29,428 bases of DNA from a virus. A model generated the notes under the pieces. That model saw only the letters and a list, made by a program, of their open reading frames with translations. It searched no databases and was not told where the DNA came from. Every line of letters starts with the position of its first letter. Within the stretch, counting starts at the first letter, position 1. The position numbers and the translations under genes were made by a program. Positions 2,812 through 6,945 of this stretch are shown piece after piece. Where the stretch lies: positions 1 through 29,428 of IMG/VR virus record IMGVR_UViG_3300009164_000257. One strand, 5' to 3'.

Positions 2812-2907
2812 AATAAGCCGAAGGGGTCAGAGTCTTCGGGTTATTTTAAGGGTTAAAACAACCTAAAGCCAGTTCTGTACTCTGACACAGACTGGCTTTT
2901 CTTTTTT
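2812..2907 (+). ncRNA. Structured leader RNA with two kissing hairpins
   Basis: Three hairpins occupy this gene-free interval. Hairpin 1: CCGAAG (2818-2823) with CTTCGG (2834-2839), extended by AATAA/TTATT (2812-2816/2841-2845). Hairpin 2: GGGTT/AACCT (2850-2854/2860-2864), small. Hairpin 3: AAAGCCAG plus TCTGT (2865-2878, one bulged T) with ACAGA plus CTGGCTTT (2887-2899). The entire 8-nt loop of hairpin 3, ACTCTGAC (2879-2886), is the exact reverse complement of GTCAGAGT (2826-2833) in the loop of hairpin 1, which predicts a kissing-loop tertiary contact. The RNA ends in a T-rich tract and lies directly before the replication-initiation gene at 2914, so it is probably a cis-acting leader; no known RNA family is claimed. 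Confidence 0.65.
2865..2907 (+). terminator. Terminator-like hairpin in the leader of the replication gene
   Basis: A 13-bp stem with one bulge and an 8-nt loop, followed by TTTTCTTTTTT (2897-2907), has the form of an intrinsic terminator. It stands only 6 nt before the ATG at 2914. Placed there, it would either end the first early transcript or act as an attenuator whose folding depends on the upstream hairpin it can kiss. Which of the two applies cannot be read from the sequence. Confidence 0.6.
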
Positions 2908-2913
2908 ATTAAT

Positions 2914-3612
2914 ATGGCAGCATTTCGCAAAATATCAGTAACCTACTGGGCTGATTCATTTGTAGGGGAACTAACTCCAGAGCAAAAGTATTTTTATCTT
3001 TACTTGATGACAAACGATAAGACAACGCAATGCGGAATCTATGAAACATCAATTAGAAAGATTTGCTTTGACACAGGGTACAACTCTGAAACGGTACAAA
3101 AATTACTTGATTTTTTTGAGGAAAAGAATAAGATTAGATTTTCCAAAGAAACCAATGAAATTGCTCTTTTAAACTGGGTTAAGTTCAATGACTCAAATTC
3201 TCCTAAAGTATTGGCTTGTGTAGAAAAAGAGCTAAAGCAAGTCAAGAATAGAGTATTGATACAGTATCTATACAGTATGGATACACATCCACAAGAAGAA
3301 GAAGAAAAAGAAGAAGAACAAGAAGAAGAATACCAACAAGAAGAAATTTTGTCTTTTAGGGATGAATTATTTAATAGATGGTTTTCTTATAAGAAAGAAA
3401 AAAAATCTAAGTATACGGCAATTGGTAAAAATCAATTATTTAAATTGTGGGAACTTAAAAGCGACAAAGAATTAGAAGAAGCTATTAACAATTCTATCGC
3501 AAATAATTATCAAGGAATATTCGAACCTAAAAAACAATTCAATGGAGCTACAAACAACGAACCGAAACTCGGAACTTCAGCAGCAAGAATGGAAGCCATT
3601 AAAAATTGGTAA
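2914..3612 (+). CDS. DnaD-like replication initiation protein (replisome organiser)
   Basis: A 232-residue protein with the layout of phage replisome organisers. Residues ~1-105 form a winged-helix-like N-terminal domain (FRKISVTYWADSFVGELTPEQKYFYLYLM, then two helix-rich blocks and a hairpin ending ALLNWVKFND). A low-complexity acidic linker of Glu and Gln follows at ~127-143, then a DnaD-like C-terminal helical domain (RWFSYKKEKKSKYTAIGKNQLFKLW, and NSIANNYQGIFEP). Proteins of this kind bind the phage origin and recruit helicase loaders. The start is the first ATG after the structured leader. The last 71 nt overlap the next gene in another frame. Confidence 0.75.
   Translation: MAAFRKISVTYWADSFVGELTPEQKYFYLYLMTNDKTTQCGIYETSIRKICFDTGYNSETVQKLLDFFEEKNKIRFSKETNEIALLNWVKFNDSNSPKVLACVEKELKQVKNRVLIQYLYSMDTHPQEEEEKEEEQEEEYQQEEILSFRDELFNRWFSYKKEKKSKYTAIGKNQLFKLWELKSDKELEEAINNSIANNYQGIFEPKKQFNGATNNEPKLGTSAARMEAIKNW
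3295..3345 (+). repeat. GAA-rich microsatellite encoding the Glu linker
   Basis: A run of GAA/CAA triplets (with AAA and GAG-free variation) encodes the poly-Glu/Gln linker of the replication initiator. In-frame triplet repeats can lengthen or shorten without frameshift, so the linker length may vary between related phages. Confidence 0.7.
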
Positions 3613-4303
3613 CGCAGAAGCAGATATTATAATGCAAGCGAGAAGCACCCAAACCTTGCGTGTAAGGCACGAAGAAGACCTTAAACAAGTATTGCGTTAT
3701 TCGATGGTATTAGTGGGGATTAGGGGAAACAATATGCCTACCGAAGAAGAAAAGTTTGTACTTATAAATTTTATAAAAACAAACTTTGGAAACTTAACCC
3801 CAGAAGAAATAAAATTAGCCTTTGAATGGGCAGTTTCTGGCAAGCTAGGTATAGATGCTAAATGCTACGAAAATTTCTCTTGTGAATACTTTGGTCGAAT
3901 TGCAAAGTCTTACATTGATTACTCAAGACAATCTACTTTGACCGTAGTAAAAGAAGTTGAGGCTTCAAAAGAAATACCCAGCGATGCAGATTTAAAGATG
4001 GCAGCTATTAATTCGGCTAATATGTATTCTCAAGAGATGATTCGTTGTCACGAGCGAAACATTAAAATGAACTGGATAGCTGGAGGTTTACACGTTCTTT
4101 ACGACTACATAGTTAAATTTCATATTTACGAAACAACTCCAGAAGATAAAAAAAGGATTTACGATACACTTGTAAACAAATTTGCTGATAAAGAAGAGTT
4201 AATTATGGCTTGTAAAGCCCAATGTTATAGGGAGTTTATTGAAAACTTAGCAGATTTTAAAGCATATCTTGATGAAAATGGCAAAATTCAACCAATAGAC
4301 TAA
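3542..4303 (+). CDS. Probable helicase-loader-like partner of the replication initiator
   Basis: A 253-residue protein, helical and without a Walker motif, encoded directly behind the DnaD-like initiator, the position usually taken by a helicase loader in siphophage replication modules. Blocks include PTEEEKFVLINFIKTNFGNL followed by a helix with FEWAVSGKLG, and FSCEYFGRIAKSYIDY, a pattern seen in Bacteroidetes phage proteins of unknown biochemistry. The long start at 3542 overlaps the initiator by 71 nt; an in-frame ATG at 3632, 19 nt beyond the upstream stop, would give 223 residues and remove the overlap. I cannot decide between them. The loader role is inferred from position. Confidence 0.5.
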   Translation: MELQTTNRNSELQQQEWKPLKIGNAEADIIMQARSTQTLRVRHEEDLKQVLRYSMVLVGIRGNNMPTEEEKFVLINFIKTNFGNLTPEEIKLAFEWAVSGKLGIDAKCYENFSCEYFGRIAKSYIDYSRQSTLTVVKEVEASKEIPSDADLKMAAINSANMYSQEMIRCHERNIKMNWIAGGLHVLYDYIVKFHIYETTPEDKKRIYDTLVNKFADKEELIMACKAQCYREFIENLADFKAYLDENGKIQPID

Positions 4304-5619: not shown

Positions 5620-6123
5620 ATGAACTACGTAGAACCTAACGAAAGACTTAGTTTAGTTAATCATCCATTAAGCCTTGTTAAAAGGTTTTGGCAATATGTG
5701 GATAAAAAATCAGATAACGAATGTTGGGAATGGAAAACTAGTCTTATGATTAGAGGTGGTTATGGACAATTAAGGCATAACTTAAAAACATTAAAAGCTC
5801 ACAGATTATCTTACGAAATTAATGTAGGAGAAATACCAAAAGATAAAATGATTTGTCATTCTTGTGGAAATAGCAAGTGTTGTAATCCCAATCATTTATA
5901 TGCTGGAAGTTCTAAAGACAATTGGAATGATTCTATTAAACATTTAACTGCATATCAATTACCTGCAATTAAACCTGAAGATGTTCATTGTGCTAAAATT
6001 AATTATTTAATTGCAAGTGAAATAAGAAATAGTAATGAAAGCGGAAATGTTTTGGGTAAAAAGTATAATATTTCAAGAGCAATGGTAAGCAGAATAAAAA
6101 GAAATTTAGCGTGGAAAATATAG
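5620..6123 (+). CDS. HNH homing endonuclease with C-terminal DNA-binding helix
   Basis: A 167-residue protein. Residues ~35-105 form an HNH domain of the HNH_3 type: CWEWK, GGYGQLR, AHRLSYE (His61), then ICHSCGN (C79, H80, C82), CCNPNHLY (C87, C88, N91, H92) and KDNWND. The Cys pairs would bind structural zinc and the His/Asn residues form the nicking site. The C-terminus (~128-165) resembles a helix-turn-helix (VLGKKYNISRAMVSRIKRNL) that would supply DNA specificity. The gene is free-standing, has its own candidate promoter and overlaps the next gene by 13 nt, as expected for a mobile insertion between conserved phage genes. Confidence 0.85.
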   Translation: MNYVEPNERLSLVNHPLSLVKRFWQYVDKKSDNECWEWKTSLMIRGGYGQLRHNLKTLKAHRLSYEINVGEIPKDKMICHSCGNSKCCNPNHLYAGSSKDNWNDSIKHLTAYQLPAIKPEDVHCAKINYLIASEIRNSNESGNVLGKKYNISRAMVSRIKRNLAWKI

Positions 6124-6320: not shown

Positions 6321-6493
6321 AGCCAGATGAAAGAGCAAAGTCGTTAATGAATAACGCTTATTACTTTACTGGTAATAAGAATTTAGCTAAAGAGTTATGC
6401 TTATATATGTGTGAACTATTTGGAGAATATAATCAAAGAGTAGATGATAAAATTTATTGGAAATTAGTCGCTGAAAACATTTATCTACTTTAA
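6317..6493 (+). CDS. Small helical protein, paralogue 3 of 3
   Basis: A 58-residue frame filling the space between two coupled genes: it starts in the ATGA overlap with the DUF3310 gene and its TAA shares one base with the ATG of the sigma-like gene. The product opens KPDERAKSLMNN, continues with LAKELCLYMCELFGE and closes with DDKIYWKLVAENIYL. These blocks match the genes at 2231 and 2465 (P-x-E/Q-K/R-A-x-x-L; an Ala/Cys-containing helix; Asp-x-x-Tyr-Trp-x-x-Val). Function unknown. Confidence 0.65.
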   Translation: MKPDERAKSLMNNAYYFTGNKNLAKELCLYMCELFGEYNQRVDDKIYWKLVAENIYLL

Positions 6494-6945
6494 TGGAACA
6501 TATATACTCTAGGCATAAGCACTGGGTTTCAATGGTTAAAAAGTTTGGCGAGATTAACTATGCCGAAGATGTAGTACAAGAAGCATATATAAAAGTTTAT
6601 GGAAAAGATATTAATGAAGCTTATTTTTATTATACGCTTAGAAGCCTTACGATGGACTTACATTCTAAGAAGGTTATTAAGGTCGAAGTAACACAAGACA
6701 TTGAGTATAGTTTAAAAGAAGATGAAAGCAATGAGTTTGCAGAAGAACTAGCTCAACCTTACATAGAATTTATAGATACTTGGGATTGGTACGACAAAAA
6801 GCTATTTATGCTATGGGTAAATAATAGAATTTCAATTAGAAAACTTTCACGAGAAACGAACATAGGATTTATGAGCGTTTACAATACAATCAGAAAATGC
6901 AAACAAAAACTAAAGGAATGGCAAAAAGAAAACCACAAGGCTTAG
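6493..6945 (+). CDS. Phage-encoded sigma-factor-like protein (ECF-type layout)
   Basis: A 150-residue protein with two helical domains, the layout of small sigma-70/ECF factors. Residues ~1-60 resemble region 2 (AEDVVQEAYIKVYGKD at 24-39, then a helix with YYTLRSLTMDLHSKK). An acidic linker (~66-95) leads to a region-4-like domain (~98-143): YDKKLFMLWVNN followed by a helix-turn-helix, SIRKLSRETNIGFMSVYNTIR (114-134), and a basic tail. Such proteins direct host RNA polymerase to specific promoters. Four ECF-like promoter motifs stand before late genes in the same genome (10374, 17303, 20350, 26477), which would be its natural targets. Identification rests on pattern; family membership is likely but divergent. 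Confidence 0.7.
   Translation: MEHIYSRHKHWVSMVKKFGEINYAEDVVQEAYIKVYGKDINEAYFYYTLRSLTMDLHSKKVIKVEVTQDIEYSLKEDESNEFAEELAQPYIEFIDTWDWYDKKLFMLWVNNRISIRKLSRETNIGFMSVYNTIRKCKQKLKEWQKENHKA

Follow-up and report, generated by a model that had tools for sequence, protein, structure and literature searches.

A covarying kissing-loop RNA with a hypervariable loop code ahead of the replication genes of uncultured phages

The main new fact to come out of this analysis is a hypervariable code inside nearly identical flanks, the code being that of two complementary loops in an RNA element found ahead of phage replication genes. Judging from covariation among relatives, the structure of this element and its kissing interaction are almost certainly real. 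The same architecture was found ahead of the replication module in more than 100 related phage loci, all sequences compared being metagenomic contigs, with about 38 distinct loop codes (42 listed minus doubtful entries), nearly all of them perfectly complementary. The RNA family is undescribed in the open-access literature and is widespread in uncultured phages of Bacteroidetes, the putative hosts having been assigned from the promoter type and from rare matches to MAGs.

The element was analysed in a 29,428-base virus record (the window, by which we mean this whole stretch of DNA), in which Erf, RusA, terminase, portal and endolysin genes are present; all features of the element and the genes given with coordinates just downstream of it are on the + strand. 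Hairpin 1 (2812-2845), supported by folding and covariation, comprises in the fold an outer stem (2812-2816/2841-2845), a purine mismatch (2817/2840) and an inner stem (2818-2823/2834-2839) that closes the loop 2824-2833. This loop contains K1 (GTCAGAGT, 2826-2833), which is perfectly complementary to K2 (ACTCTGAC, 2879-2886), the loop of hairpin 3 (2866-2898), also supported by folding and covariation. A small hairpin, P2 (2850-2864), was tentatively placed in the linker, its basis in the fold and the alignment being weak; its stem is GGUU/AACC or GGUA/UACC in relatives and is absent from one of them (L011). Hairpin 3 has the features of an intrinsic terminator, a G+C-rich hairpin followed by a T-tract, in the window and in the type A and type C alignments; the T-tract was read at 2897-2907 in the window and is also present in the listed relatives. 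Folding of the window region that includes hairpins 1 and 3 gave -34.2 kcal/mol (z = -4.5), and none of 200 shuffles folded as well. The first gene past the terminator (2914-3612) encodes a replication initiator, a DnaA-like replisome organizer (phrog_6251, E = 4.6e-45), and its ATG at 2914 comes 6 nt after the end of the T-tract at 2907. The original prediction was confirmed as to the coordinates and the perfect 8-nt match of the loops, the strength of both stems, and the 6 nt between T-tract and replication gene.

Relatives were viral contigs with a homologue of the window initiator, in which the stretch just upstream of the gene was read. Those carrying the element had codes such as GTGAGAG/CTCTCAC, GTAGGAGT/ACTCCTAC, GTCGGAG/CTCCGAC, GTTGCAG/CTGCAAC and ATGGTAC/GTACCAT, among others. 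The loop-loop helix was 95% paired in the type A alignment (A2, 36 sequences) and 100% paired in a second set, the type C alignment (A5, 15 sequences). In both, most positions of the helix showed compensatory changes. For the whole structure in A2, 97.8% of the cells were paired, 16 of the 28 pairs showed double changes, and the covariation score was 0.371; shuffles scored 0.129, and slid structures no higher than 0.09. Double compensatory changes were found in 9 of the 11 pairs of type A hairpin 1. In type C, the 7-bp kissing helix was paired in every cell; double changes were seen in 6 of its 7 pairs, and one position took UA, AU, CG and GC. Because the eighth pair of type A (2833-2879) was broken in 14 of the 36 relatives, the conserved type A kissing core is 7 bp. 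RNAalifold independently recovered the nested stems of types A and C. Compensatory changes in the stems and both loops of related phages, the check proposed with the original prediction, were therewith found; a relative in which one loop had changed alone, which would have spoken against it, was looked for and not seen. We judge the covariation support for the kissing interaction to be exceptionally strong.

A descriptor scan of 2.46 Mb of fetched loci gave 88 kissing pairs of this kind versus 12 after shuffling, which, together with the compensatory changes in homologous leaders, bears out the claim that the match goes beyond chance. An exact-pattern scan for GTCAGAGT...ACTCTGAC returned mostly chance matches and few true relatives. 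Because the descriptor itself demanded complementary loops, we also ran tests blind to complementarity. Covariance models built without the loop pairing, the E-values of which are rough, led to further elements with new codes, all matching (for example GTCGTAG/CTACGAC, GTTAGAG/CTCTAAC, GTAAGAG/CTCTTAC and GTAGCCG/CGGCTAC). A second blind search, based only on a promoter, two hairpins, a T-tract and an ATG, yielded 69 elements, 59 of which had own loops matching over at least 6 nt; after swapping loops between elements of different code in this set, 2% matched. The misses mostly came from a loop drawn too small in the fold or from the wrong promoter being picked, and two of them, L059 (the same contig as L401) and L409, carry matching pairs elsewhere. 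A chance match of the loops was ruled out by the shuffled scan, the covariation and the complementarity-blind test. No recognisable element was found in 11 loci of an examined set.

The variability of the code was most evident in pairs of loci with near-identical flanks. Between L393 and L395, identity reaches 96% upstream and 99% in the initiator; their RNAs are 44% different and have unrelated codes, and the divergence begins directly past the promoter box. Likewise, L453 and L466 differ by a new RNA and code, their flanks being 96% identical upstream and 98% identical in the initiator, and between L393 and L394 the small downstream gene is nearly unchanged and the RNA differs. Fourfold sites in such pairs showed 0 or 1 difference per ~30 (about 3% or less). 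On average, RNAs differed by 3% when they shared a code versus 31% when they did not. L443 and L446 differ at two core-code letters, with matching changes on the opposite side. Hypervariability within near-identical flanks is as would be expected of a specificity determinant exchanged or diversified between phages; neutral exchange of modules between phages is another candidate source of the code differences.

A -7 promoter box (TATATTGC, 2799-2806) precedes the element in the window, with a predicted start near 2811. It fits TAnnTTGY, and most relatives have TAnnTTTG, which 38 of 57 elements have 3-8 nt ahead of the base of the hairpin (0.84 expected). TAnnTTTG is the -7 box of Flavobacterium sigma-A promoters, at -12 to -5, and a TAnnTTGY variant has also been described (PMC9723704). 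The form TAnnTTGC, which replaces TAnnTTTG in the window and in about ten relatives, resembles the F. psychrophilum SM5 motif, and a different sigma factor may serve some members of the family. The stems use G-U rather than A-C (50 versus 0 cells in type C, 14 versus 3 in type A), indicating that the + strand RNA is what is selected. The element very probably has its own promoter and terminator. Transcription is predicted to begin 1-2 nt ahead of hairpin 1 and to stop within the T-tract, giving an RNA in which the 5' and 3' termini are both closed off by stems. Because the predicted promoter sits at the base of hairpin 1, the element is very probably a transcription unit, more than a leader. 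Its earlier description as the leader of the replication gene therefore holds for its position but needed correction, also because some elements precede other genes: HNH genes (L206, L051), primase-helicase genes and small ORFs.

The ORF before the element is co-directional and usually stops 8-37 nt upstream of it. The distance from the T-tract to the next ATG has a median of 11 nt. It is at most 20 nt for 53 of the 61 elements, as compared to 2 of 44 control cases, which were the other terminators of these loci. Since there is no room for another such promoter, the downstream gene probably depends on read-through, which would be the simplest route to its expression. Every locus among L001-L046 that has sufficient flank contains the element, at most 700 nt from the initiator; most were counted in one tally, L009, L020 and L025 were read by eye, and L008 was found by a covariance model. 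The element is retained where the N-terminal part of the initiator is of another kind; a tie to one initiator gene was ruled out by these differences. The initiators of the window (2914-3612), L195 (8325-9029), L206 (5927-6637) and L072 (8087-8800) share a common C-terminal end (...KLGTSAARMEALRKW and similar) and have unlike N-terminal parts; by their sequences, they appear to be modular, with DNA-binding halves swapped. The conserved second gene of the type A replication module (3542-4303, 253 aa) weakly matches a PHROG of unknown function; its position leads us to guess at a candidate helicase loader.

We give an even chance to the element acting as a kissing-loop leader or attenuator of the replication operon and giving off a short RNA as well. 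Starting from the structure, kissing pair, strand, promoter box, terminator, position and hypervariability, which were read from the sequence, we infer read-through dependence, attenuation and trans action as follows. RNA polymerase would start at the box just before hairpin 1 and produce an RNA of 85-100 nt with two hairpins (three in type A). Most transcripts would stop at hairpin 3, giving a stable short RNA, and a minority would read through to form the replication mRNA, with its first ATG ~11 nt downstream. The loops of hairpin 1 and of the terminator hairpin would form 7 bp with each other, either within one RNA or between two molecules, and this pairing would tune termination. A terminator/antiterminator switch in the classical sense, one of the functions originally suggested, lacks support so far: neither the window fold nor the consensus folds predicted a conserved antiterminator, although in type C the basal stem P0 and cis kissing may be alternatives to one another. 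This negative, and the elements that stand ahead of genes other than replication genes (HNH in L206 and L051), weigh against the attenuator reading. Codes being specific to each phage, interaction would be limited to RNAs that share a code type, and the accumulated short RNA would report the number of genomes or the presence of a phage of the same type. It is conceivable, though we hold it only tentatively, that this amounts to a trans identity system, in which the short RNA with its 7-nt code recognises nascent leaders with the same code. Such an RNA would limit the replication genes of its own genome and of same-code competitors, and this limitation would drive rapid diversification of the code under frequency-dependent selection. 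If the code acts in trans, phage replication and inter-phage compatibility would be controlled by RNA alone, in a way that is easily reprogrammed, and the ~38 natural kissing-loop codes would make a set for RNA engineering. The element also opens a direct route to the timing of replication in Bacteroidetes phages, a subject that has been little explored.

Several known systems resemble parts of this proposal. In ColE1, the loops of RNA I and RNA II have a length of 7, and differences in the loop code set compatibility (incompatibility groups); loop pairing and heteroimmunity are known for the C4 antisense RNA. The element shares with ColE1 a loop-loop kissing of ~7 bp, here backed by covariation of the base pairs. 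However, the ColE1 antisense transcript comes from the opposite strand, and opposite-strand control of this type was rejected for the element since both loops are on the + RNA and the stems use G-U, not A-C. C4 of phages P1 and P7 is a small structured RNA in the immunity operon that controls genes downstream (PMC8198154). Its target, though, is the anti-repressor mRNA, and the element gave no covariance-model match to C4. IsrK of Gifsy-1 is likewise a short RNA that stops at an intrinsic terminator of its own; transcripts that run past it form the mRNA of the next phage genes, and the short isoform acts in trans on this long one (PMC4825925). The architecture of the element, with a predicted short form and a predicted read-through mRNA from one promoter, appears to fit this type, and trans control by a short RNA is plausible because IsrK exerts it (PMC4825925). 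In contrast, IsrK works on translation by refolding, its host and sequence are unrelated, and the paper describes for it no pair of complementary loops within one molecule that carries a variable code (PMC4825925). In satellite phage P4, pairing of the CI RNA with complementary leader segments causes premature termination and blocks the replication genes (PMC4825925). The likeness to P4 CI/SeqA was tested, and the element is indeed a leader with complementary segments upstream of replication genes; but CI arises by processing of a longer leader and has its pairing partners in the separate sites seqA/seqC, whereas the two partners in the element are loops within a single 90-nt RNA, one of them in the terminator hairpin. 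By analogy, the short RNA could limit replication genes by its code, as P4 CI does by another layout. GOLLD and ROOL are phage non-coding RNAs with covarying, partly intermolecular kissing loops (PMC12286853). Unlike the element, which has no Rfam match, they are hundreds of nucleotides long, lie near tRNA islands and have no kiss with a terminator loop.

Among the other explanations, a purely structural role, in which cis kissing stabilises the terminator or protects the 3' end and the code changes neutrally, by drift or exchange, and confers no trans specificity, seems unlikely. By rough A-form arithmetic, which gives an estimate of the geometry, kissing within one molecule can be drawn for type A (linker 18-24 nt), and self-kissing could occur there if the small linker hairpin opens; this, and the loop pairing energy of -7 to -11 kcal/mol, would suit such a role. 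By the same rough estimate, however, the 9-10 nt linker of type C spans at most 68 Å, while 80-110 Å are needed with the basal stem closed. Because the linker is too short, cis kissing in type C needs an open basal stem or a sharp bend; the basal stem P0 and cis kissing may be mutually exclusive, and two type C molecules could kiss without strain. Also against the structural explanation, RNAs differ by ~40% where fourfold sites differ by ~3% or less, which is beyond neutral drift alone.

A free-standing trans-acting sRNA, a regulator or decoy of host or phage RNA or protein, appears rather unlikely. Its position would then reflect conserved gene order, and the replication genes would be transcribed from upstream by polymerases ignoring the terminator. 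This agrees with the element having its own promoter and terminator, with both RNA ends lying in stems, and with its presence ahead of non-replication genes, but not with the next ATG being far nearer to the T-tract than it is for ordinary terminators; moreover, a target search of the window and of the loci checked revealed no second site at which K1 and K2 both recur. That the feature acts as DNA, as replication origin hairpins or as the target of a homing endonuclease, variable so as to evade cleavage, the RNA fold being a by-product, is very improbable: although the element adjoins initiators and in L206 and L051 is followed directly by HNH genes, the G-U bias of its + strand stems and the placement of the promoter box at the hairpin base argue against it. 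A riboswitch-like ligand sensor is extremely improbable; the leader position, the terminator and a tertiary kissing as in several riboswitches would fit, but hardly any unpaired nucleotides are conserved across types, and whole RNAs are exchanged for unrelated sequence.

Scans with the Rfam 15 covariance models (including C4, Flavo-1, ROOL, GOLLD, RNAI and riboswitches) gave nothing at the gathering threshold and, at E up to 5, only unrelated chance matches off the element. Membership in a Rfam family was ruled out by these scans, in agreement with the earlier remark that no named family has this layout. DNA searches of the phage collection gave nothing relevant, and the descriptor found no convincing element in the nearest cultured phages by terminase and capsid (Nonlabens P12024L/S) or by terminase (Riemerella RAP44, Olleya Harreka_1). 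In 395 Bacteroidota genomes, the element was found in one by the R1 search and in none by the R2 search, the R1 matches in bacterial genomes being mostly terminators alone. A prophage role is therefore not evident, and an integrated-prophage element common in hosts is unsupported; of the window-phage ORFs scanned, a subset of the total, none was recognised as an integrase or a repressor. The only convincing element in a bacterial genome assembly, L300:3064-3151 on a Saprospiraceae MAG contig (41.9 kb), precedes a primase-helicase gene and has stems unrelated to type A with the same code, GTAGGAG.

The window also encodes, at 6493-6945, a small protein placed like the sigma-70-region-2 gene (gp35) of P12024L, with no match in PHROGs. 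The searched records held one type A copy each, save for one weak opposite-strand echo. L327 and L329 belong to one 59-kb contig in which two replication modules of phages are present; it may be a concatemer or a fusion of two phage genomes. Finally, a 7.3-kb phage fragment (L206) carries two elements with different codes, at 3075-3170 and 5823-5915: CTGCAAC/GTTGCAG ahead of the HNH gene and GTCGGAGT/ACTCCGAC ahead of the initiator.
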